From IMG/VR virus record IMGVR_UViG_3300006037_000014, positions 1 through 40,889 of that record: 40,889 bases of DNA; one strand, 5' to 3'. The position numbers and the translations under genes were made by a program. The first letter of the stretch is position 1, and every line of letters starts with the position of its first letter. This DNA is from a virus. Shown here in pieces: positions 13,389 through 40,889 of the stretch. Below the pieces are notes generated by a model, which was given only the letters and a program-made list of their open reading frames with translations, made no database searches and was not told the DNA's origin.

Positions 13389-13703
13389 CTATTTGTTCAA
13401 CTTTGACATCAAAGAATTTTGATGAATCATATTAAATTCATCTTTGGTTAAATATCTTTTTTTCTTTGTATTACTGTTATAAACTGGTGGGAACATATAA
13501 GAACCTTGCATAGAATCGAGAGTGGCCATACCTTGTGGTGGGGATGATTGTGCTGAGCCACCATCCTCTACTATATTGTAATCATCAACATTATAATTTA
13601 TATCAGCAATGGATGTTTTCGAATCCTTGGTATAAACAAAGAATTTATCAAAACCAATAATTGGTTTTGATAAATTCTTATTATAATTTTCTAGTATCAG
13701 CAT
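13389..13703 (-). CDS. Small uncharacterised protein, probably virion-associated
   Basis: A 104-residue protein. The frame is open further upstream, but the ATG at 13703 (MLILENYNKN) lies two bases from the stop of the preceding gene and is the natural start, so I prefer it to a start overlapping that gene. It contains a short basic stretch (NTKKKRYLTKDEFNMIHQNS) at the C-terminus and a Gly/Ser/Gln/Pro-rich middle (GGSAQSSPPQGM). No known domain is recognised. A perfect 37-base palindrome lies within its coding sequence, shortly after the start. It is embedded in a minus-strand row of structural genes, so a virion or assembly role is possible but unproven. Confidence 0.6.
   Translation of the reverse strand: MLILENYNKNLSKPIIGFDKFFVYTKDSKTSIADINYNVDDYNIVEDGGSAQSSPPQGMATLDSMQGSYMFPPVYNSNTKKKRYLTKDEFNMIHQNSLMSKLNK
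13641..13677. repeat. Perfect 37-base palindrome inside a gene
   Basis: Eighteen bases (GAATTTATCAAAACCAAT) are followed by one central A and then by their exact reverse complement. The element lies 26 bases inside the 104-residue gene and is fully translated there (through KPIIGFDKF). In RNA it could fold as a long hairpin near the start of this gene and just after the end of the previous one; in DNA it could be a dyad for a dimeric protein. Confidence 0.85.
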
Positions 13704-15573: not shown

Positions 15574-15607
15574 AAATGGGCTATCTTTATATAAAGATAG
15601 CCCATTT
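15574..15607 (-). terminator. 34-base perfect inverted repeat, terminator-like
   Basis: A complete palindrome with arms AAATGGGCTATCTTTAT and its reverse complement. It lies between the stop of the histone-like gene and the late-like box of the next gene on the minus strand, and is followed on that strand by a short T run. The GC-containing stem in AT-rich DNA fits a terminator for the short histone-like transcript. Because it is symmetric it could also act on the opposite strand. Confidence 0.65.
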
Positions 15608-15859: not shown

Positions 15860-16705
15860 TTACATATTGGTTTCAGTTGCCATGAAATTGATATATTTGT
15901 TCCTATGGTATTCAGACAAAAAGATATCAGATTTTATATTTGATTTTTCAAATAAACATAAAACGAATTTGAATTGATATAAAATATTGAAGTTTTTTTG
16001 TATCAAAATCTTCAGATCATACGGTAAGTATATGTTCCAATCGGAATGTTTTTCGACAAAAGATTTATATACAAAGTCTGAAATATCATAATTCCCATAA
16101 AGATCATTGTAATTCTCAACAAAAATCTTTGCTACATTAAAAATCAAATTATCATCTTTAGATTCTCTTAATCTTTCAATTTTATCTGGTAGGCTATCAA
16201 CTATGTCATTAAAAAATAAGATGAGTGGTCTATAGTTAAAATCTTCGAATTCTGATTCAGTTATTAGATATTTGAAACAGAATTTACAATTAACTGATTT
16301 AACAAACAAATTGTTTAGATCAAAAGATTCAGACTTCAGACCAAGATCTTTAGAGCCGAAATTTAATAGACCTTTATAGACAGCTTTATTTTCCTCTATG
16401 CCATCTATGCCAAGATTTGAAAAACCAACAAAAGAATTTGATTCTAAATCTATACAAAATTTGAATTTGCCGTTAGGCAATTCTTTTATATTATTTTTTA
16501 TTATGGCCTCAAAATTTCTAAGACTTGGATATAGGAATTTATCTGTGTTTGATAAGATTTGATTTCTATTCTTTTTTAAAATATACCAAAGATCATCATT
16601 TTTTATTAAAAGAACATAGATTCCTTTTGGTTTTTTGAAAATTTCGAATACTGTATTTTTATGGAGTTTTTTTGTGGAATTCGGAATTTCATTTAGGCCT
16701 ATCAT
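15860..16705 (-). CDS. Uncharacterised 281-residue protein
   Basis: A soluble protein rich in Lys, Asn, Phe and Asp, with no recognised family. It begins MIGLNEIPNSTKKLHKN and has an alpha/beta N-terminal half (KGIYVLLIKNDDLWYILKKN, KFKFCIDLESNSFVGFSNL) and a helical C-terminal half (LLFFNDIVDSL-like and YLPYDLKILIQKNFNILYQF). Three cysteines occur close together or nearby (CKFCF, residues about 140-145), too few for an obvious zinc site. It is transcribed divergently from the gp15 gene across a 380-base structured gap. A minus-strand GAAAC box 147 bases upstream would give it a long leader containing a stem-loop. It is followed by the histone-like gene. I cannot assign a function. Confidence 0.6.
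   Translation of the reverse strand: MIGLNEIPNSTKKLHKNTVFEIFKKPKGIYVLLIKNDDLWYILKKNRNQILSNTDKFLYPSLRNFEAIIKNNIKELPNGKFKFCIDLESNSFVGFSNLGIDGIEENKAVYKGLLNFGSKDLGLKSESFDLNNLFVKSVNCKFCFKYLITESEFEDFNYRPLILFFNDIVDSLPDKIERLRESKDDNLIFNVAKIFVENYNDLYGNYDISDFVYKSFVEKHSDWNIYLPYDLKILIQKNFNILYQFKFVLCLFEKSNIKSDIFLSEYHRNKYINFMATETNM
15870..15874 (-). promoter_or_regulatory. GAAAC box before the histone-like gene
   Basis: On the minus strand GAAACCAATATGT is followed 17 bases after its first G by CATAAT and then TATAAA, the same layout as the boxes before the plus-strand early-type genes. It lies within the last codons of the 281-residue gene, 60 bases before the histone-like start, and would let that gene be transcribed separately. 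Confidence 0.5.
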
Positions 16706-16751
16706 AAATTGATTTAAAAATATTAATTTTAACTTTAGGAGAATTTTGTTT

Positions 16752-16809
16752 AGAGCAACGCTTCGATTTGTTTTACTTCATTACATTTCGTAAAACTTCA
16801 TCTTGCTCT
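16752..16809. ncRNA. Nested stem-loop, leader or small-RNA candidate
   Basis: Outer arms AGAGCAA (16752-16758) and TTGCTCT (16803-16809) enclose inner arms GTTTTAC (16770-16776) and GTAAAAC (16790-16796). Both stems are exact and nested, so one molecule can form both. On the minus strand it lies in the leader of the 281-residue gene, 47 bases before its start. Orientation is not settled. Confidence 0.45.
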
Positions 16810-16847
16810 CCCACCCCCACACCCATGTAATTGTCCAATTTGTGCAA

Positions 16848-16852
16848 GTTTC
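16848..16852 (-). promoter_or_regulatory. GAAAC box, minus strand, leader of 281-residue gene
   Basis: GAAACTTG read on the minus strand, 147 bases before the start of the 281-residue gene. It faces away from a plus-strand box 25 bases to the right. No clear TATAAT follows it, so support comes only from the shared pentamer and its divergent placement. Confidence 0.35.
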
Positions 16853-16877
16853 AGAAAATGTGAATTTAATAGAGAAA

Positions 16878-16882
16878 GAAAC
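16878..16882 (+). promoter_or_regulatory. GAAAC box, plus strand, upstream of gp15
   Basis: GAAACTTAATTTGT matches the fuller box (GAAACYY, then TTTGT) seen before other plus-strand genes. It is about 208 bases before the gp15-like start, so a transcript from it would include the second GC-richer island. Confidence 0.4.
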
Positions 16883-17018
16883 TTAATTTGTAAAAAAGAA
16901 AGGAAATTTGTAATTAAAAATAAACATTTAAATTGAAAATGTTATAGTTCGTAGATTACCGTAGACATGTTCCTACTCAACCCACCCTAACCACCCACGT
17001 TATATCCCATCTTCGCCA

Positions 17019-17034
17019 CGGTTTCACCGAACCG
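17019..17034. repeat. Short GC-rich inverted repeat upstream of gp15
   Basis: CGGTT and AACCG flank a six-base loop in the second GC-richer island, followed on the plus strand by AATTTA. It may be the terminal hairpin of a small RNA starting near the box at 16878, or part of the gp15 leader. Confidence 0.35.
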
Positions 17035-17051
17035 AATTTATCAGCATCAAT

Positions 17052-17056
17052 GAAAC
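17052..17056 (+). promoter_or_regulatory. GAAAC box before the gp15-like gene
   Basis: GAAACCAATTTTCTAATAG begins 34 bases before the start codon of the gp15-like gene. The downstream TAATAG/ATAAAG stretch is a weak match to a -10 element. It is one of the shared boxes before plus-strand genes. Confidence 0.45.
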
Positions 17057-17085
17057 CAATTTTCTAATAGATAAAGAAATATCAA

Positions 17086-17841
17086 ATGGCTAATTTTACA
17101 GATTTAGAGAGAAATTATGATAATGTATTTTTAAGAGATATTATAGTTGGAACTCAATCATTTTTATTTGATAAAATAAAATATAAACAGTTAGAAAATA
17201 ATTTATGGAAAGAATATAATGTTCCATTCTATTATTCATATACTGGCTCGGAGGATTTTATACAAGATTATTTTCTTCCTTATCATAGAAATTGTAATAA
17301 TTTGAAACTTGATGGTAATGTTGTACCTATACCCTCTGGTATATTAACAATTGGAACAACAACAATTAAATCAGATGAATTAACTAACAATCATGAAAGG
17401 TACGTTTATAACAAGAAGATTGTAAACGATTTTGGCTCTGAAATTAGATCTTATTCAGCAAGAGTGTTATGGATGCCCATACTTGTAAATTTTAATGTTT
17501 CCATTAAAACAAGTTCTGATATGATGAGGATGAAAATCTGGCAAAATATCATTAGAACTCTATATAAAGCCCAAAAATTTCAAATTTCTTTTGAGGGTTT
17601 CTCATCTATACCATGTTATATTGTTATATCTGATGATTATGATATGGAGAAAGAATTTCAATTTTCCTCACTAGAAGGGAACAGAAGACCAGAGATAAAA
17701 TTTCAAATAGAAGTTCATACTTACTTACCAGATGAAGATACTTCTACTGAATTCCACACTGAAGAAAAAATGACAAATGGGATTATTTCAAATATAAATA
17801 TAGATAATAATCTTGAGGATACTGTGATAAAAGATAGTTGA
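17086..17841 (+). CDS. 15: T4 gp15-like tail completion and sheath stabiliser
   Basis: A 251-residue protein matching the T4 gp15 family pattern: an N-terminal NVFLRDIIVGTQSFLFDKI helix region, VPFYYSYTGSEDFIQDYF, IPSGILTIGTTTIKSDELT, the long central ARVLWMPILVNFNVSIKTSS, then IIRTLYKAQKFQISFEG and a final RRPEIKFQIEVHTYLPD. T4 gp15 is a 272-residue ring at the head-proximal end of the tail that caps tube and sheath and receives the head. Length and strand order agree. The gene starts after an A-rich leader without Shine-Dalgarno and is preceded by a GAAAC box. It is followed 29 bases later by an unknown coiled-coil gene with a late-like box. Family assignment is by pattern; no alignment was run. 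Confidence 0.78.
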   Translation: MANFTDLERNYDNVFLRDIIVGTQSFLFDKIKYKQLENNLWKEYNVPFYYSYTGSEDFIQDYFLPYHRNCNNLKLDGNVVPIPSGILTIGTTTIKSDELTNNHERYVYNKKIVNDFGSEIRSYSARVLWMPILVNFNVSIKTSSDMMRMKIWQNIIRTLYKAQKFQISFEGFSSIPCYIVISDDYDMEKEFQFSSLEGNRRPEIKFQIEVHTYLPDEDTSTEFHTEEKMTNGIISNINIDNNLEDTVIKDS

Positions 17842-20059: not shown

Positions 20060-20551
20060 TTATTTCCCAAAGAAAGATTCTGTAACAAGTTTATATTTCG
20101 CATTGTTCCTGATACAATATTCAGTAGAAGCTTTCAATTTTATCATATTTAGGATATATGACTTTAATCTAAAATTGTAATTTTTCAGTGCTTTTGAATT
20201 ATTAGATTTTGGTTTTTGAGGTTCTTCTAACATCGATTTTGGTTTGACCTCTATTATCCACCTTTCTATTTTGTTATCAACTTTTATGAAAATTTCGAAA
20301 TCTGGAAAATACGTGTGTTTTTTATTGTCCATGGGTGACATATATGGTATTTCCAAACATTCTGAACTCCATTTTACAATATTCGAATTTTGATCACAAA
20401 AATTGCAGAATTGTAATTCAAGAGAACTTCTATAAATTATGTTCTTTACATCACCATCATACTTCAACCTATTTTTTGGTATGAATTTCCCTTGTTTGAA
20501 AGATTTAGAAAATTCATTTGAATATGGGTTCAAGGCTTTTATTATGCTCAT
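20060..20551 (-). CDS. 4: T4 gp4-like head completion protein
   Basis: A 163-residue protein with the strong T4 gp4 (gp50) pattern: N-terminal GKFIPKNRLKYDGD, YRSSLELQFCNFCDQN, NIVKWSSECLEIPYMSPMDN, KHTYFPDFEIF and WIIEVKPKS, then a helical tail. T4 gp4 is 150 residues and is needed to finish packaged heads before tail joining. The arrangement Glu-45, Asp-84, Glu-101 and Lys-103 (ExK) resembles the PD-(D/E)xK nuclease/TnsA-type active site, which the family is thought to share. The gene lies downstream of the tape-measure-like gene on the minus strand and abuts the convergent sigma gene with no gap. Confidence is high for the family. Confidence 0.85.
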   Translation of the reverse strand: MSIIKALNPYSNEFSKSFKQGKFIPKNRLKYDGDVKNIIYRSSLELQFCNFCDQNSNIVKWSSECLEIPYMSPMDNKKHTYFPDFEIFIKVDNKIERWIIEVKPKSMLEEPQKPKSNNSKALKNYNFRLKSYILNMIKLKASTEYCIRNNAKYKLVTESFFGK

Positions 20552-20556
20552 ATGTG

Positions 20557-23508
20557 TTAATATTTGTTTGATTCCTTTGTTGAAATTGTGCCAGTCATTA
20601 AATGGTTCTTCATTGCTGATAATTCTTTACTTTGAGCAATTTGAACTTCAACTAACATCTGAATATTCTGAGAAAGTTGCATTATAATTTCTTTCAACAT
20701 TTCAGTATCTCCTTGAGGTTTTTCTTTTGTGTTAGAAGTTTTCTGTTGCTTAGAATTAGTCTTTTTTGCAATTTCATATGTATCATACTCTTCCTCTATC
20801 TGTTGTTGAATTGGTGCTTTCGTTGGTGTCATGTTGACATTTTTACCATAATTTATGGCTTCAACATTTCTTTCCATCGAGTAATCAGCAGTACCAAGTT
20901 TTGTTAAACCATCTCCATATCTTGCTAAAAGTTCAAGATTGGAAGTTTTACCAGAATTGATAATAGAAAATTGTTTTGCTAAAGCAACATTTGATTTTTC
21001 GATGGCTTTAGCCATATTATCAAATGGTGTCGCAAGTTTGGTTAAATTTGAATATAACTTTGTTACAGTGGCGAATCTAACCATATCTTTTTGTGTAACA
21101 TTTTTCGTGTCCGTTACAGCACCGAAAATTTTACCCATGCCAGTTTGCAGATCTGTACCGAAACTTCCAATATTGACATTTTTGGAAGACATCACAAGCT
21201 TTGCTATTGTATCAAGGCTTGGTGACAGTTTATTAACAAGTTCTATACCATTTGTAACATCACCGTCTGACCAAGGAAACCAACCTTCTGTCTTTCTATC
21301 TTTTGAACCAATTTTTGCAAAAGCACTTGGTATGACATCCAAAAGATCTGTAATATTTTTTGAAATTAATGGTATATCTGCTGGATTTATTGCTGATTTA
21401 CCTCCTGGTCTCCATGCTGATACACCTTTTTGTAAAGATATCAAAGTATTACCGATGCTTTTTGTGGATTCAATACCTCTCGATACATCATTTTGACCAA
21501 ATTGTATGCCAGCGAATTCTCTCATCCCAGATGTAGATCCAGAACTTGCAAATGCCCCAGGAATAACTGCCAAAGTGTCTTGTATATTTTTGGATACAAT
21601 AGCTAAATCTTTTGGATCTATTAAACCTTTCCAAGCTATTACACCTCTAGCCAATGATTCTAAGGTGACCCCTATATTTCTTGTGGATTCAATGCCTCTT
21701 TCAATGGCATTATCGCCAACGCTGAATCCAAGAAAGGTGTTCATACCTTCCGTTGATCCTGCTGTTGCAAAAGCAGAACTTACACTAATTATTGTTGTTG
21801 ATAAATTCTTTGAATCATCTTTAGACCAAGATCCACTTACTGCCTTATAGGTGGATAAGCCTTTACCAAGCCCCATTAAAGATAAACCCATTAAACCTAT
21901 AATAGGTAATTTTAGTGGTAATGTTAAAGAATCTTTTAGAGATAAATCAGAAAAAGATTGACCAATCCCTGTTATAACTGATTTAAGAGTATATCCTATT
22001 GCATCAGCAGATTTTTTATCAAGTATTGGGAACATTGAAACACCCTTTGATATTGCCATTAAAGCAAGACCAACACCACCCATAGCCAAAGCACCAAGAC
22101 CTATAAAGACTGGCATTGGACCAGTACCAGCGAGTGCGAATGCTCCACCTATTTCTATTAAAGCAGTAGGTAATTGCCAAAGGACACTAGGGTTTTTTGT
22201 TATGACCTCAGATATTTTTTGTAATGGGAATGATAATACAAATAATGCCAATCCTGCTATACCCATGGCTAAAGCACCAATACCTATTTCATCGAATCCC
22301 TTACCAAACAAATATAATAAACCACCTACACCAGCTATTGTTAAAATCGTACCAATAACATTTGTACCATCTATGACCTTTGATGCTACGAGCATTGATA
22401 AAGAAAATGCAAGTATTGAGCCAGACATCCACAATAAATCTGCAGCACCTTTTTTACTTTCTTTACCATAAGTACCAAGCAAATGGAATAATCCGACAGT
22501 TGTTACTACAGCTAAAAATAATGAACCTACTCCAACCAAAGAGGTAGCTGTTAAAACAACAGAGGCTAAAGCCAAAGATCCTGCAAATGCAAGAACCGAT
22601 AAACCTATAAACATTAAAGATTTGCTCTTGTCGTTTGTATCTTTAGCATCTGGCATCTTTGAAAGCATATAACCAAGAGTTACAGCAGATAATGCCAAAA
22701 GAGGTAAGGCAACAGCACCAATAATTAAAAATGGCACTGATGATGCTAAAGATATGGCGAAGCCTCTTATGGAAGCACCCATAGCACCAAGTTCACCAAG
22801 GGGAGAATTTCTACTATTTTGTTTTGATCTAGAATTTTCTGTTATTTTATTCTGAATATTCAGTATACTTTGTATAACAGACGTTAGAATTGGTATATTT
22901 TTTTCGGCAAGCTTCAGTCCTTTCGTGTTAGCAAGTATCTCAATTATGGCTTGTGATGAAGTACCAACAGCTGTTAGCATTTTTATATTCCCTTTTACTT
23001 CATCATAATTCAATTTATCTTTTGGATTTATATTTGAAAGAAGTTTGTTTATAACGGATGTGAATCCACCAACTGTAACATATGCTAAAGGTATGTGTTT
23101 TGCTGAATATGCTATATTTTTTATAAGAGACCCAGATATATTAGCCACAGATGATAAAACTTTCACATTCTTTTGCAGATCTTTTTCCGAAACTGAATTG
23201 GACAGAGTTAGAATTGTTTTACAGTAATTTTCTATAAATTTAACATAATTTTCTGAATTTTGATATGTTTTACCATCAAAGTCTTTTAACCCTTCTGATA
23301 TGGACTTTATATTTTTACCATCTATTTTAGCATTATCAAGCAATTGTTTTGCTAATTTATTTGCATCGGTTTTATTCGTATCATCTTTTTTCTCATCGGT
23401 AAAATGTTTATAGATATCTTCAAGAATTTTATTGGAATCCATCAATAAACTCGATTGGAGTTTCATATGATTCACAATATATTTTTGATCTTTATTATTT
23501 TCAGCCAT
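20557..23508 (-). CDS. Putative tail tape-measure protein
   Basis: A 983-residue protein from the preferred start at 23508 (MAENNKDQKYIVNHMK); the frame is open 20 residues further, but that would overlap the gp26 start, so I reject it. The first 230 residues are helical. Residues about 230-520 form a run of hydrophobic glycine-rich segments (such as IGALALPLLAL-type and GIGALAMGIAGLALFVLS) that look membrane-active. Then come three related blocks of about 75-85 residues (AFATAGSTEGMNTFLGFSVG, AFASSGSTSGMREFAGIQFG, AFAKIGSKDRKTEGW). The C-terminus has a long helix and Gln/Lys/Glu stretches. Size, hydrophobic core and repeats fit a tape measure or a DNA-ejection protein; T4 gp29 (590) has no close match. 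gp4 follows directly. Confidence 0.6.
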   Translation of the reverse strand: MAENNKDQKYIVNHMKLQSSLLMDSNKILEDIYKHFTDEKKDDTNKTDANKLAKQLLDNAKIDGKNIKSISEGLKDFDGKTYQNSENYVKFIENYCKTILTLSNSVSEKDLQKNVKVLSSVANISGSLIKNIAYSAKHIPLAYVTVGGFTSVINKLLSNINPKDKLNYDEVKGNIKMLTAVGTSSQAIIEILANTKGLKLAEKNIPILTSVIQSILNIQNKITENSRSKQNSRNSPLGELGAMGASIRGFAISLASSVPFLIIGAVALPLLALSAVTLGYMLSKMPDAKDTNDKSKSLMFIGLSVLAFAGSLALASVVLTATSLVGVGSLFLAVVTTVGLFHLLGTYGKESKKGAADLLWMSGSILAFSLSMLVASKVIDGTNVIGTILTIAGVGGLLYLFGKGFDEIGIGALAMGIAGLALFVLSFPLQKISEVITKNPSVLWQLPTALIEIGGAFALAGTGPMPVFIGLGALAMGGVGLALMAISKGVSMFPILDKKSADAIGYTLKSVITGIGQSFSDLSLKDSLTLPLKLPIIGLMGLSLMGLGKGLSTYKAVSGSWSKDDSKNLSTTIISVSSAFATAGSTEGMNTFLGFSVGDNAIERGIESTRNIGVTLESLARGVIAWKGLIDPKDLAIVSKNIQDTLAVIPGAFASSGSTSGMREFAGIQFGQNDVSRGIESTKSIGNTLISLQKGVSAWRPGGKSAINPADIPLISKNITDLLDVIPSAFAKIGSKDRKTEGWFPWSDGDVTNGIELVNKLSPSLDTIAKLVMSSKNVNIGSFGTDLQTGMGKIFGAVTDTKNVTQKDMVRFATVTKLYSNLTKLATPFDNMAKAIEKSNVALAKQFSIINSGKTSNLELLARYGDGLTKLGTADYSMERNVEAINYGKNVNMTPTKAPIQQQIEEEYDTYEIAKKTNSKQQKTSNTKEKPQGDTEMLKEIIMQLSQNIQMLVEVQIAQSKELSAMKNHLMTGTISTKESNKY

Positions 23509-23519
23509 AACTTTTATGT

Positions 23520-23540
23520 GAAACCCTTTTGTTATATAAT
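23520..23540 (+). promoter_or_regulatory. GAAAC box plus TATAAT before gp26
   Basis: GAAACCCTTTTGT is followed by TATAAT 15 bases after the first G, and the gp26-like start is 47 bases from the box. The opposite strand of this 58-base gap must carry the promoter of the tape-measure gene. It is the clearest example of the shared motif with the TTTTGT extension. Confidence 0.55.
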
Positions 23541-23566
23541 ATTTCTTATTATAAAATATTTTTGTC

Positions 23567-24505
23567 ATGGGATTGAACGAAGAGGAAGAAATGGTTGGAA
23601 AGCAGGATCTTGGTGATCTTCAGGATGGTGAACAACCACTAATAAGAGAGAATTCTTTTACTGTACCAGTTGGTTATAAACACATAGACAATTTGGCATT
23701 GCCATCAAAGGGTATGTTCTACCAAGATGATTTTCATGTGTCTTGTAGAGGTCTAAATATAGATGAAGTTAAGCATTATTCTATGATAGATGAAAATTCC
23801 AATCTTGATATAGAAAACCATTTGAACCAAGTCTTGGATAAAGCTTGTAAAATATCTGTCGGAGATAGAAATCTTTCTTACAAAGATTTGAAATTGGCAG
23901 ATAAGCTTTATATTATATTTGTCATAAGAGATATGACAATGAATAAGCACAACAGACAGGTAAATCTCCGTTTGCCATCTGTTTGTTCCAATGGGCATAT
24001 CTCAAATTTGACCATAGATTCTGAAATGTTTTCATTTTATAAAATCAATGAGAAATTCTTTGAATCATATTATGATTCAAATTTGAAATGTTTCAACATA
24101 CCAAAATATGATTTAAGGATTTATATACCATCTATTGGTGTTGCTGAAGCTTTATTCCAATATGTCAAACATAAAGAGGAATTGAAGCAAAAGGGTGATT
24201 TATCTGGTGCTACTTACAATAAAGAATATTTCAAATTTCTTTTATTGTTAATACCAGATTTTAGAAATTTAACCATAGCTAAAATAGATGCTATGATGAA
24301 AAAATATAATGAACAACCTTTTTCTATTGAAAAGTTTGAAGCACTTGAATCTATAACAAGAAGAATATCAATCTCGATAGAACCATCTGTAACCCATAAA
24401 TGTGATACTTGTGAAGAGGAGGTCACAACACAGATACGATTTCCCAAAGGCTATAGATCTATTTTCTATCTTACAAGTGTCGATTCAGAATTATTTGGAG
24501 ATTGA
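23567..24505 (+). CDS. 26: T4 gp26-like baseplate hub protein
   Basis: A 312-residue protein with the T4 baseplate (gp26-type) pattern: after a short acidic N-terminus, LPSKGMFYQDDFHVSCRGLN (residues 45-64), KHYSMIDENSNLDIENHLN, then LADKLYIIFVIRDMTMNK. A Cys-x2-Cys pair near 279-282 (HKCDTCEEE) and an upstream CSNGH could bind zinc. The related gp26 of T4 is a component of the central hub; the family is widespread in contractile phages. The gene opens the plus-strand block and has a GAAAC box 47 bases upstream. At its 3' end the frame overlaps an alternative frame that leads into the small downstream gene (see next entry). Family assignment is by pattern. Confidence 0.76.
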   Translation: MGLNEEEEMVGKQDLGDLQDGEQPLIRENSFTVPVGYKHIDNLALPSKGMFYQDDFHVSCRGLNIDEVKHYSMIDENSNLDIENHLNQVLDKACKISVGDRNLSYKDLKLADKLYIIFVIRDMTMNKHNRQVNLRLPSVCSNGHISNLTIDSEMFSFYKINEKFFESYYDSNLKCFNIPKYDLRIYIPSIGVAEALFQYVKHKEELKQKGDLSGATYNKEYFKFLLLLIPDFRNLTIAKIDAMMKKYNEQPFSIEKFEALESITRRISISIEPSVTHKCDTCEEEVTTQIRFPKGYRSIFYLTSVDSELFGD

Positions 24506-24780: not shown

Positions 24781-25983
24781 ATGAGTACAATCAACAATCA
24801 GAACGAAGAGTTTAACGACATTTTTGACATCGGAACAGAATCAATGTTCACACAGGAATCGACAGGTGGCAACAACCAAATTGATCCAGACTATTACAGA
24901 CCATCTCTTAGACTAGAGGACAATAAAGTTCTTGAAAGATATTCGTCTATCATAAGGCTCTTGCCAGATATAAATCACAAAGTTACTGATGCCAAAGCTA
25001 AAGATTTTGGTAAACCAATCACAAAGTACATGAAATATCAGTACTACTTTGATCAAGATCCATTGTCTACACAAAAAGGTGGACTCTATCTTGATTGCCC
25101 AAGCACAGTTGGTGATATTTCAATTTTTTCCATTGCTTACCTTAATTTTTACAAACACGAATCTTCTTTTGTTCGTGATTCTGTTAAAGGTTTTTCAAGG
25201 AAACAATACTTCTGGTCTTTGTGCCAAATCATCAAAGATGTTCAAAATCTTTCTGTTCAAAACACAGTTAAAATCTTGAGATATTCTAAAGGTATCAATG
25301 AGAAAATTGAACTGGAAGCAACAGAGGACTCATCAATTGACAAAAAATCTGTGGTGGTTTTCGATCCAATGAAAGGTAAAGACCTTGTCATGATTATCCA
25401 AGAAGATGAAATTCCAGACAAAAATACTGGTGTTAAAAGAAAACAAATAACATATGACAAATCTTATTTTGCTAACAATCAGAGTGCATTGACTCTTGAT
25501 GGTGGTGTAACAAGATTACAAGATTCTCAAGAAAGCAGAAAATTGGTATTTGAATATTTGAAACAAAATTCACCAGATATGTCTAAGGTTTTCTTCAAAA
25601 CTTGGACTGATGATGATCATGACAGAGCATTACAAATGATTCGTCATTCTTTGCAAGATGAATCATTATTCAACAATCTTATGCAAGCCGCTAAAAAGAA
25701 GAATTACAGATGGACTTTGAAAAACAATGTTTATCAAACGGATTCTCCTGTTCAACAACAAGCACCAATCGTTTCGGAATCTGCTAATGTTACTTTCCAA
25801 AACCCAGTAGTAGATTCTGCACCAAAAGTATCTGCACCATCTGTTGTTGATGGTTTGGCATCTGATTTGAATTCTGAAAAAGCTAGAATTCAAAATTTGG
25901 TGGCTACTGAAAAACCTGCACAAAATTCTGCACCACAAGCGGATTCTGTGGATTTCAGCAATATTGATTTCTCTAAAATATAA
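24781..25983 (+). CDS. 32: T4 gp32-like single-stranded DNA-binding protein
   Basis: A 400-residue protein. After an acidic head (NEEFNDIFDIGTES), the core has the layout known for gp32 relatives in distant T4-like phages: YYRPSLRLEDNKVLERYSSI, IRLLPDI, YYFDQDPLS, GLYLDCPSTVGD, then RKQYFWSLCQIIKDVQN, VKILRYSKGINEKI and a basic/aromatic segment, ending in a low-complexity Ala/Gln/Pro region and a short tail (SVDFSNIDFSKI). T4 gp32 (301 residues) coats single-stranded DNA during replication and recombination and has a zinc site with Cys and His; I do not see that set here, so the fold may be zinc-free. A primase gene follows at once, with hairpins at the junction. Expression is likely strong and early. 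Confidence 0.78.
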   Translation: MSTINNQNEEFNDIFDIGTESMFTQESTGGNNQIDPDYYRPSLRLEDNKVLERYSSIIRLLPDINHKVTDAKAKDFGKPITKYMKYQYYFDQDPLSTQKGGLYLDCPSTVGDISIFSIAYLNFYKHESSFVRDSVKGFSRKQYFWSLCQIIKDVQNLSVQNTVKILRYSKGINEKIELEATEDSSIDKKSVVVFDPMKGKDLVMIIQEDEIPDKNTGVKRKQITYDKSYFANNQSALTLDGGVTRLQDSQESRKLVFEYLKQNSPDMSKVFFKTWTDDDHDRALQMIRHSLQDESLFNNLMQAAKKKNYRWTLKNNVYQTDSPVQQQAPIVSESANVTFQNPVVDSAPKVSAPSVVDGLASDLNSEKARIQNLVATEKPAQNSAPQADSVDFSNIDFSKI

Positions 25984-34134: not shown

Positions 34135-34157
34135 GAAACTTTTTTGTTTTATATAAT
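34135..34157 (+). promoter_or_regulatory. GAAAC box plus TATAAT before the lone plus gene
   Basis: GAAACTTTTTTGT then TATAAT 17 bases from the first G, 43 bases before the start of the 192-residue gene. The first thirteen bases are identical to those before Dda. The small gene is inside a minus-strand fibre block, so it needs its own promoter. Confidence 0.6.
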
Positions 34158-34756: not shown

Positions 34757-36906
34757 TAATTTTTGTGGTTGATCTTAAGATACCTACTATTTAAGTTGGA
34801 AAATTCCACAAAATCATAAACCCCCACAACATTTATTGAATTTTCTGATAATATTATTCTGTTTTGTGATTTTGTGGCATCATTCAAATATGTTGTAGTC
34901 ACATTATTTGAATTTGAAAATATCTTATTAATTGTTGGATATCTATTGATGCCATTTATTATTGAAACAGATGAATTGGCTGTATTGTTTATTTTTAAGT
35001 ATTTTGCACAACCCACATCATAAAAAGCATTAGAAAGTTCTATTGTATTGCCTGTTACAGAAACAGATTCAGTGATATTTGAACCATTTAAATTAAAAAT
35101 TATACCATCTCCTCTCAGTGTATATTTATTGGCTGTCTCAGACGTATCAACATTGTGGAAATTCGTTCCATCGAAAATCATAACCAAAACATTTGTTGAT
35201 GGTATGGTATTTGATGGACTACCAAGATTCAGTATTGGATATGGTTGTGTGTTTGGCAATGAATCATTATTTGTGTCAAAATCTACTGATAGATTTGTTT
35301 GTAAAAAATTCGCATTGTTGGTGATCTTTATGGAGTCACCAACGACAGGAATGTTGGTAGTGCCAACTGTATATTTGTTGGTACTACCAACAAAGAAATT
35401 CACAACCGAGCCAATAATTCTATCTCTATAACACCCATTTAAATTTGAAATATTGCAAGATTTGTTGTATGAAAATATTAAATTTGAAGATACCTGTATA
35501 ATCGAAGATTCGACACCTAGAAGCATAGATCCTTTTAAATTGAAAACTTTGGTTCTAATTGTGTTGAGTATAGAACAATTTTCAAGTATTGATATATCTA
35601 AACCACTTGAATTTGCAACATAAGAATTTTTCATTCCAAATATTTCCGAATTTGTTATATTGGTCACAACAGAATCCTCAATATTATCAAGGGTCGAATT
35701 TGATAATGCTGTATTGAATGTTGATCTTTTTATATTCTTTATATTCAAATAATTGAAAGAACAAAATCTGCTGTTCCCAACAATACTACCATAAAATCTT
35801 GTTTTTTCCGAATTTTCTACAACAGTATTTGATATATCCTTAAATATAGATTTGTTTGAATTTATTACTTTCAAATATGATGATTCAACAGAATTGCTTG
35901 ATTTCACAAATGAACATAGATAAGAATTTTGAACTTCGATATCAGTGCAATTATAAAACACAACATTCGCTATATTTATATTTGAATTTATTGTGGTTGA
36001 ATCTACCGATGGGTTAGTTTGGTTTATAATTGGTGAAGTTATTTTTATATTTTTACATACACCATTTATAACAGAGCATGCTTGTACATTCGCACTAAAT
36101 ATTTGTGGATCACATAGAATATAAGAATTAGTTATTGGATCAAATCCTCTTTTGAATCTTATATTTCTAAAATCAAAATCAGCCTCAATATTGTTTGATG
36201 TGTCTTTCCGTTTTTTTATATTTCCATATAAAAAACTTGAATTTATATCAAAAGATATCTCATCTGTAGGATTTTCCAATGAAATAACAGAATTTGTATC
36301 AAGCTTATTGTTAGATACTGCTCTAAATACTAAAGTTTCTTGTGTGTTGGATGTTGTTATAGCACCATCATAATAATATTGGCATCTATAAGCTATTGAA
36401 TATAAAATGTTTGGTTGTAAACCGTTATTTGTTATCAAAGTTTTAAGATTCTGAATGTTTGTGTTGTTAATCACTACAACATTATATCCAGAATAAACAA
36501 CACAAGAACTACCTTCAAGTATACAATAAAGATATTCATCACCAGATAATTCATTATATGACCAAGCAGTACCATCATATTTGGTTGTAGGAATTATTGA
36601 ATTCCCTATTTTTATAGATACTTGATTTGATGATCCAGATGCAGAGGAAATTTTTATTAAAAAGAAGCTATTGTTTTTTGGTAATGTACCTCCGTTGGGT
36701 TGTAAATCATATATTGAAGTATTACTACTATATGTAAATATAGTTTCATATGGTCTAACTATAGCACCTGATGTATCAATTTCAGAGGTATCACCATTTG
36801 GATATAAGAATGTTATTTTACCTGAATCAGAATAAAAAATTCTGATTTTGTCTGATTCAGGCAAGATGAATTCGTTCCTATTTCTTTTTTTGAGTATTAT
36901 CGACAT
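34753..36906 (-). CDS. Tail spike or fibre with parallel beta-helix-like body
   Basis: A 717-residue, Ser/Asn/Ile-rich protein. The N-terminus (MSIILKKRNRNEFILPESDK) is a short fibre head with a beta-rich domain (about 30-150). Residues about 200-500 are a run of short imperfect repeats built around Ser/Asn/Ile-type strands (ENSEKTRFYGSIVGNSRFCS, NTALSNSTLDNIEDSVVTNI, NSEIFGMKNSYVANSSG), as in right-handed parallel beta-helix tailspikes. The C-terminal 200 residues look like a capping domain. No catalytic residues of a polysaccharide lyase or hydrolase are certain. It shares its block with two other fibre genes and follows the 268-residue gene by two bases. It is likely a spike that binds or degrades surface polysaccharide. 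Confidence 0.65.
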   Translation of the reverse strand: MSIILKKRNRNEFILPESDKIRIFYSDSGKITFLYPNGDTSEIDTSGAIVRPYETIFTYSSNTSIYDLQPNGGTLPKNNSFFLIKISSASGSSNQVSIKIGNSIIPTTKYDGTAWSYNELSGDEYLYCILEGSSCVVYSGYNVVVINNTNIQNLKTLITNNGLQPNILYSIAYRCQYYYDGAITTSNTQETLVFRAVSNNKLDTNSVISLENPTDEISFDINSSFLYGNIKKRKDTSNNIEADFDFRNIRFKRGFDPITNSYILCDPQIFSANVQACSVINGVCKNIKITSPIINQTNPSVDSTTINSNINIANVVFYNCTDIEVQNSYLCSFVKSSNSVESSYLKVINSNKSIFKDISNTVVENSEKTRFYGSIVGNSRFCSFNYLNIKNIKRSTFNTALSNSTLDNIEDSVVTNITNSEIFGMKNSYVANSSGLDISILENCSILNTIRTKVFNLKGSMLLGVESSIIQVSSNLIFSYNKSCNISNLNGCYRDRIIGSVVNFFVGSTNKYTVGTTNIPVVGDSIKITNNANFLQTNLSVDFDTNNDSLPNTQPYPILNLGSPSNTIPSTNVLVMIFDGTNFHNVDTSETANKYTLRGDGIIFNLNGSNITESVSVTGNTIELSNAFYDVGCAKYLKINNTANSSVSIINGINRYPTINKIFSNSNNVTTTYLNDATKSQNRIILSENSINVVGVYDFVEFSNLNSRYLKINHKNY

Positions 36907-37745: not shown

Positions 37746-37772
37746 GAAACTTTTTTGTCCTCCGTTTATAAT
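37746..37772 (+). promoter_or_regulatory. GAAAC box plus TATAAT before Dda
   Basis: GAAACTTTTTTGT is followed by TATAAT at 37767 (21 bases after the first G), 50 bases before the start of the Dda-like gene. The first thirteen bases are identical to the box at 34135. The leader is free of the Shine-Dalgarno type. Confidence 0.6.
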
Positions 37773-39503: not shown

Positions 39504-39931
39504 CATTGAACAATCCTATTATAGAGAATTATTTTAGCATAGCCATAAAGGAATCTATAAAATCTAAATGTAAAAGATTAAAGGTCGGATGTGTGGTTGT
39601 CAAAGGTTATGATATCTTAACAAAGGGTTATAATCACATGCCCAACGAAAGCGATGATTGTGAATGCAATAATGTTTCACACGATTCTGTGGTACACGCA
39701 GAATTTGATGCTATACAGAAATATTTTGATAAAATCCAAAATCTGAATTTCTTAAAAAATTCAACAATTTTTATCACACACTCTCCTTGTGTGAATTGTG
39801 CTAAATTGCTAGTTTCTATTCAACCAAAAATTGTTTATTATCTTGATTCTTATAGAGATTTGTCTGGTATAAATATCTTAAAAGAGGCAGATATAGAGGT
39901 TATCCAATTTATTAACCCTCGTCTTGAGTAG
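39500..39931 (+). CDS. dCMP deaminase
   Basis: A 143-residue zinc deaminase of the cytidine/deoxycytidylate family. Catalytic features: HAEFDAI (His-66 zinc ligand, Glu-68 proton shuttle) and SPCVNCAKLL (Cys-97 and Cys-100 zinc ligands). An additional CECNNVSHD just before the HAE motif resembles the second zinc region of T4 dCMP deaminase. The T4 enzyme is 193 residues; this one is shorter but complete. It makes dUMP for thymidylate synthesis during phage DNA replication. It overlaps the preceding stop (ATGA). Its last 20 bases overlap the convergent 3' end of the portal gene. Confidence 0.85.
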   Translation: MTLNNPIIENYFSIAIKESIKSKCKRLKVGCVVVKGYDILTKGYNHMPNESDDCECNNVSHDSVVHAEFDAIQKYFDKIQNLNFLKNSTIFITHSPCVNCAKLLVSIQPKIVYYLDSYRDLSGINILKEADIEVIQFINPRLE

Positions 39932-40889
39932 GAATATCATCTTGGGTAATATTTGAGGTATCTTCGGTGTTGTCCAAATCTTCTTCTGAATCTTCTAGCT
40001 GTGGTTCATCTTCGAAATTTTTATCAAAATTGTTTTGATAATTTTCACCCATATCACCATTGATTTCTCTAGATTCTGTACCATTTACATTTTCTTCTAA
40101 TTCTAGAAGTCTTTCATTCTCTTCTATTTCCACATCAGACATTTCGAAATATTTTTTCATTAAAAATTCTGTGGCAAAAATCTGTTTACCATTTGGTTTC
40201 GTCAAAGATAGCATGTCTGAAACTATGTCTTTAGATTGGAGATCTTTCTGCTGTCTTAAAATTCTCTCGAAATCTGAATCTGATTGATATTCTAGACCAA
40301 TACCTGGTTTGAATTCTGGATCTTTCTCAAGAACTTGTATATCCAAACAACACTGGAAATATAATGGGTTCATTATGATTTTTGAAAATTCTGTTCTAAG
40401 TCTTTTTAAAAGTTTGTGGAATTGTACCTCATCGAAAGGTACACCAGAATCTGAATATATGCTAAACACACCTGAACCCCCATCTCTATCAAATCTGGAA
40501 AAAGGTAACCATGAATCTCTTTGTAATTTCTTCTCAAAATATTTTGCAATATCCATATCAGATAGATCTGGACCATCAAGCTTTAAAGATTCAATGGTAG
40601 TATTTGAACCATCTGAATCACCCATGATGAAATTTTTTGCATAATTAAAGTTTGAACTTGAATTGATTTGAACTTGGCCAGATTTGTGATCAATATTAAT
40701 GTCTTCAGAATATTTATTTTTTATTATGGCAAGTCTTTGTTTGGCTTTTGTTTTGTCTAAGTGACCAACAGGCACAAGAATTTTCAATCTAAAAACAGAA
40801 TTCATGATAACCCAAGCCACCTTTGTGTTCTCCATGGTTCTCATTAAATTGAAAGATCTTTCAAATCTCTCTGCATAAGAGATATGGCC
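39912..40889 (-). CDS. 20: T4 gp20-like portal protein, C-terminal part
   Basis: The frame is open from the stop at 39912 through the right edge of the window, so the N-terminus is missing; an internal Met at 40844 is not the start, since the frame continues upstream (AERFERSFNLMRTMEN). The visible 325 residues match the T4 gp20 pattern: VFRLKILVPVGHLDKTKAKQ, RLAIIKNKYSED, LKLDGPDLSDMDIAKYFEKK, LQRDSWLPFSRF, and FHKLLKRLRTEFSKIIMNPL. The C-terminus is very acidic (EDEPQLEDSEEDLDNTEDTS). The portal is the dodecameric ring through which DNA enters the head and on which the neck is built. T4 gp20 is 524 residues. The gene is convergent with dCMP deaminase. Confidence 0.85.
   Translation of the reverse strand, partial: GHISYAERFERSFNLMRTMENTKVAWVIMNSVFRLKILVPVGHLDKTKAKQRLAIIKNKYSEDINIDHKSGQVQINSSSNFNYAKNFIMGDSDGSNTTIESLKLDGPDLSDMDIAKYFEKKLQRDSWLPFSRFDRDGGSGVFSIYSDSGVPFDEVQFHKLLKRLRTEFSKIIMNPLYFQCCLDIQVLEKDPEFKPGIGLEYQSDSDFERILRQQKDLQSKDIVSDMLSLTKPNGKQIFATEFLMKKYFEMSDVEIEENERLLELEENVNGTESREINGDMGENYQNNFDKNFEDEPQLEDSEEDLDNTEDTSNITQDDIPTQDEG

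Follow-up and report, generated by a model that had tools for sequence, protein, structure and literature searches.

By sequence comparison, the 380-bp non-coding region between p281 and the gp15-like gene is an ancient tandem duplication, which the initial annotation overlooked, and we read it, with a probability of about 0.55, as a divergent promoter/operator region built from the duplicated element. It lies in a linear viral record of 40,889 bases with 31% GC, the whole of which was analyzed and is referred to here as the window. An element of ~125 bp was duplicated in tandem, and the copies then diverged to 68% identity. The outward-facing GAAAC boxes are probably upstream promoter elements. 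The rightward box of copy 2 would drive the gp15-like gene, at a 34-bp spacing like that at other genes of this phage, and the leftward boxes would drive p281 and possibly the gene for the Hc1-like protein. The C-rich box may be a regulator site or may represent the first transcribed bases of a leftward RNA. Several motifs that were initially described separately thus share one cause, the old tandem duplication, which moves attention from RNA folding to DNA elements. Coordinates are given in Table 1.

Table 1. Features of the divergent non-coding region, its flanking genes, and selected other genes of the window
Feature	Position	Strand	Details
Divergent non-coding region	16706..17085		Between p281 (minus) and gp15-like gene (plus); ORF map, composition
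Copy 1 of duplicated element	16769..16896		~128 bp; local alignment to copy 2
Copy 2 of duplicated element	16940..17070		131 bp; start-to-start distance, 171 bp
AT-rich linker between copies	16885..16945		Lowest 50-bp GC 12%, reached by 0.27% of window
Nested inverted repeat	16752..16809		Partly inside copy 1; absent from copy 2
C-rich box, copy 1	16810..16828	-	CCCACCCCCACACCCATGT; minus strand GGGTGTGGGGGTGGG
C-rich box, copy 2	16981..17000	-	CCCACCCTAACCACCCACGT; minus strand GGGTGGTTAGGGTGGG
Dyad, copy 1	16846..16884		AAGTTTC (16846-16852) / GAAACTT (16878-16884); each arm GAAACTT outward
Dyad, copy 2	17020..17057		GGTTTCA (17020-17026) / TGAAACC (17051-17057)
Possible -10, TATAAC	16999..17004	-	16 bp downstream of copy 2 minus-strand GAAAC; not conserved in copy 1; weak
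p281	15860-16705	-	Orphan of unknown function, on minus-strand side of region
Hc1 histone H1-like protein, 58 aa	15634-15810	-	Pfam Hc1, E 1.8e-17; next gene past p281
gp15-like gene	17086-17841	+	Opens plus-strand unit; name from initial annotation
gp4-like head-closure protein	20060-20551
Portal gene	39912-40844		Near record end; matches C-terminal part of family only

The two copies align with 68% identity over 122 positions, with indels. The alignment score of 51 compares with 21.8 ± 3.7 (maximum, 40) for 1,000 shuffled pairs, and both the duplication and the pairing of the C-run boxes far exceed chance expectation. When the internally repetitive 1,003-aa gene is left aside, no other local tandem similarity in the window is as strong; that gene alone scores higher in the local tandem comparison on the real sequence, and the region ranks with it. 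The 1,003-aa gene itself (20557-23568, minus strand) has no family match, and its repetitive DNA gives tandem alignment scores of up to 60. Kept in both copies of the element are CCCACCC..CACCCAyGT, the GTTTC..GAAAC dyad, and GAATTTA between the dyad arms. When the copies are aligned, the surrounding sequence seems less well preserved than the C-rich box, the two dyad arms, and GAATTTA. A CRISPR-like repeat (GTTTCA..TGAAAC, 35 to 36 nt) was considered and rejected, as the units are too different and the similarity extends well past them.

The region fills exactly the gap between p281 and the plus-strand gene, in agreement with the earlier description of 380 gene-free bases, and its longest internal ORF is no more than 27 aa. 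Coding potential was rejected on the basis of this ORF limit and of the indels between the copies, which break the reading frames. The two GC-richer islands were also recovered (57% GC at 16982-17021 and 53% at 16806-16845, against a genome mean of 31%), and the first of them is the second highest 40-mer of the window by GC and the top non-coding one. Averaged over the region, GC is 31.1%, the same as in the genome, whereas other intergenic regions have 10 to 29%. The nested inverted repeats are exact as originally reported, with AGAGCAA (16752-16758)/TTGCTCT (16803-16809) around GTTTTAC (16770-16776)/GTAAAAC (16790-16796). They were rejected as an intrinsic terminator because no T-run follows them on either strand, and no intrinsic terminator (GC-rich stem plus T-run) was found in 16600-17200. 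Two other descriptions needed amendment. The GC-rich hairpin placed at 17019-17034 is present but has only a 4-bp stem, CGGT-TTC-ACCG, at 17019-17029. The two GAAAC boxes said to face away from each other do face outward, but as a consequence of the diverged tandem duplication, there are two such pairs (16848-16852/16878-16882 and 17021-17025/17052-17056). A search for a tRNA or tmRNA gave none. The minima of AT skew and purine skew and the keto maximum of the fragment all fall within the region, a pattern expected at a point of divergent transcription.

The fragment's two strongest C/G-run windows occupy the equivalent place in both copies. By a G4Hunter-type score, the top window of the 41 kb is at the copy 1 box (16800-16824; score, -1.64) and the second strongest is at the copy 2 box (16972-16996; score, -1.48). 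Furthermore, clusters of three GGG runs occur only twice on either strand of the window, both times here on the minus strand. This count was equalled by 10 of 200 whole-window shuffles and by 1 of 5,000 shuffles of the region itself. Pattern scans of viral contigs for the C-rich box, or for the box together with the dyad, returned chance matches only, and all seven matches to the combined pattern were inside ORFs.

The distance from GTTTC to GAAAC is 30 to 31 bp, center to center, in both copies. The right arm of the copy 2 dyad stands 34 bp before the ATG of the gp15-like gene, and 208 bp separate the rightward copy 1 box from its gene, much more than the usual 33 to 58 bp. Four GAAACTT sites elsewhere in the window (24723, 34135, 37746, and 39198) are in the sense orientation, 33 to 58 bp before the plus-strand genes at 24781, 34178, 37796, and 39231. 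Six of the 17 GAAACTT sites in the window are intergenic (3% of the DNA; binomial P = 7e-6), for a motif that was picked post hoc, after being seen. With the same proviso on the choice of motif, GAAACTT appears to act like a promoter element elsewhere in the phage. The sites at 34135 and 37746 (plus strand) have in common the 13-mer GAAACTTTTTTGT upstream of two plus-strand genes, a candidate promoter motif, and one of these two sites has TATAAT 16 bp further on. A similar GAAACTATTTTTAG..TATATAAT precedes the gp15-like gene of LR756500.

Of eight GAAAC boxes compared, only the one at 37746 has a perfect -10 at normal spacing. The possible -10 within the region agrees with TATAAT at five of six positions, a match equalled or bettered at 7 of the 97 GAAAC sites of the window. 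Sigma-70-type promoter matches in the region were not above those in shuffles, and the T4 late motif TATAAATA does not occur between 11486 and 17793. In related loci, GAAACTT was not enriched upstream of genes (10 sense versus 7 antisense), and its use as a general promoter across the group is unsupported by those loci. Given the post hoc motif, the lack of enrichment in related loci, and sigma-70 matches no more numerous than in shuffles, promoter function is an inference, as are the regulator and the identity of the active copy. If GAAACTT is a promoter element, it would provide a way into gene control in a lineage with kinship to Lak and other huge phages.

No homologous element was found in phage DNA, among 160 related viral loci or 45 whole records, or in two closer kin, in collections that may omit records very near the window's own. 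A model search of the 45 records gave four weak matches of at most 15 bits, the best two of which (L287 and L288) are within ORFs, and scans of viral contigs and bacterial genomes yielded no homologous element. No relative shows that selection maintains the element across phages, which we counted against the control-region reading. The nearest kin by gene content, loci L291 and L293, have a divergent non-coding region of 350 to 360 bp with 20% GC at a strand switch (L291:7300-7661 and L293:7203-7556). These two regions align with each other (score, 119) and not with 16706-17085. The presence of a divergent non-coding region at another strand switch in related phages was counted in favor of the control-region reading.

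On the minus-strand side, searches of phages, Pfam, PADLOC, and 25 related records returned nothing for p281, nor did PHROGs at an E value of ≤0.001. The AlphaFold2 model of p281 has a pLDDT of 34 and no usable fold. A role as a toxin was rejected, as no toxin family was matched in Pfam, PHROGs, or PADLOC. We infer that p281 and the Hc1-like gene form one operon. The Hc1-like gene is followed by a 15-bp hairpin at about 15574-15607 (z, -5.96), which probably closes the minus-strand unit. On the other side, the relatives of the gp15-like gene are in Lak phages of Prevotella, other huge phages, and Flavobacterium phage MaF61, at 24 to 31% identity. Its database relatives are unannotated or labeled "hypothetical protein," with none named gp15 and no named family, and none were found in bacterial genomes; gp15 is a plausible name for it.

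The initial annotation had proposed structured RNAs or long regulatory leaders for the flanking genes. A regulatory region for both genes is still the best reading, but modest folding values on one strand support a structured RNA weakly. Compared with shuffles, the fold of the whole region has a z of +0.30 on the plus strand, where the leader of the gp15-like gene would lie and where the fold is no more stable than that of shuffles, and of -2.29 on the minus strand, in the p281 direction, and copy 2 on the minus strand reaches -3.74, with none of 200 shuffles as good. The nested hairpin alone gives -4.4 on the plus strand, having been selected after the fact; a z of -4 is attained by about 1 to 2% of the phage's 120-nt windows. 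In a fragment-wide scan of such windows, the best one on the minus strand ranks in the top 2.5%, and those on the plus strand are ordinary. Terminator-like hairpins of the phage reach -6 to -7.6. No Rfam 15 family reached its gathering threshold in the window, and at a relaxed threshold the best subthreshold matches were to unrelated families (RatA, 27.5 bits versus the 49 needed). RNAalifold on the dyad-aligned copies gave no consensus beyond column shuffles (z, -0.5 plus and +0.1 minus), and therefore it appears to be the sequence, not the structure, that is conserved. The nested hairpin at copy 1 has no counterpart in copy 2. Both copies can form a GTTTC/GAAAC stem. A single flanking pair is compensatory (A-T to G-C), one event in a covariation comparison of two paralogous copies only, which does not establish an RNA. 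In copy 2 the stem GGUUUCAUUGA/UCGGUGAAACC has 11 pairs on the minus strand only, via G-U pairs.

These results bear on a minus-strand structured RNA, in which two paralogous G-rich domains would each be introduced by a GUUUC/GAAAC stem and which would be a long p281 5' leader or else one or two small RNAs. We consider it unlikely, although the better-than-expected minus-strand folding, of copy 2 above all, counts somewhat against the control-region reading. The copy 2 stem that is complete only on the minus strand, the compensatory pair between the copies (A-U to G-C), and the placement of tandem copies before a gene with the same orientation are all consistent with such an RNA. Against it, the best window is only in the top 2.5% of the fragment, the aligned copies share no common fold, the copy 1 hairpin is lacking in copy 2, and neither an Rfam match nor relatives were found. 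Because the region contains no terminator, a leader is more likely than separate small RNAs.

An origin of the T4 oriF type is improbable. A leftward promoter in each copy would start a G-rich RNA that hybridizes to the C-rich template and runs into AT-rich DNA, and the resulting R-loop would prime replication. Each copy has the corresponding order of leftward GAAAC, G-cluster on the RNA-like strand, and AT-rich DNA, the linker downstream of copy 2 being in the lowest 0.27% by GC, and the two G-clusters are the only ones of the R-loop-initiation type in the 41 kb. T4 oriF and oriG need a promoter and an AT-rich unwinding element, and T4 oriE, oriF, and oriG lie close to sites where the transcribed strand and the skew change (PMC3016281). 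UvsW-, Dda-, primase-, and SSB-like proteins are encoded by the phage. However, third-position skews do not flip at the region, so that there is no independent replication-type skew and the extremes track gene direction; AT-rich intergenic DNA is common in the phage, the promoters are unproven with sigma-70-type matches no better than those of shuffles, and the fragment spans only 41 kb, with no such origin seen in relatives. Were an origin present, what sets T4-type R-loop origins would become testable in a second lineage. Each copy might even be a self-contained RNA-primed origin, the two in tandem, in which an R-loop locked by the G-cluster opens the adjacent AT-rich DNA, a version that we regard as very improbable. 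It is also quite improbable that the region is a neutral relic, left by the old duplication, in a single phage lineage, of a segment that no longer functions. The lack of a homologue in any collection searched, the indels between the copies, and the lack of a consensus structure are as expected of a relic, but the seemingly better preservation of the C-rich box, dyad arms, and GAATTTA than of the sequence around them, in a compact genome with little non-coding DNA, counts against it.

Among known systems, type III toxin-antitoxin loci, with ToxI repeats before the toxin gene, resemble the region in having tandem copies directly upstream of a gene and in its direction. ToxI RNA repeats are about 36 nt each. 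In contrast to such short-repeat arrays, there are two long copies here, and p281 matches no ToxN/AbiQ/CptN-type family in Pfam, PHROGs, or PADLOC. The divergent control regions of T4-like phages also consist of non-coding DNA between divergent units with short, outward-facing boxes, and the window has a T4-like gene set that includes a weakly sigma-factor-like protein. T4-like promoters are of an early -35/-10 type and a late type, TATAAATA (PMC1524935). Unlike those regions, this one has no TATAAATA and has a tandem duplication with C-rich boxes, and its GAAACTT is not general in related loci. The T4 origins oriF, oriG, and oriE likewise combine a promoter-like box with AT-rich DNA beyond it, at a place where the transcribed strand changes, and oriE has direct repeats, although these are 12-nt iterons rather than two copies of ~125 bp (PMC3016281). 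The region also differs from T4 origins in that no MotA box is shown.

The T4-like gene set comprises, in addition to the portal and head-closure genes, UvsW-like and Dda-like helicases, a primase, and an SSB, and a 236-aa protein has a weak sigma-factor match. The relatives of the right-hand gene, in Prevotella Lak phages, other huge phages, and MaF61, suggest a Bacteroidota host for the phage, and its lineage is kin to Lak and other huge phages, probably of Bacteroidota. Elsewhere in the window, the coding sequence of a 717-aa gene contains a cluster of GTTGGT..ACCAAC-type inverted repeats (35310-35395), which folds more stably than anything else in the scan (z, -8.8 on one strand and -7.3 on the other). 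A near-perfect 19-bp inverted repeat with a 3-nt loop lies at 13640-13680, just 3' of the stop codon of a 193-aa gene (z, -7.6), and is probably a terminator.
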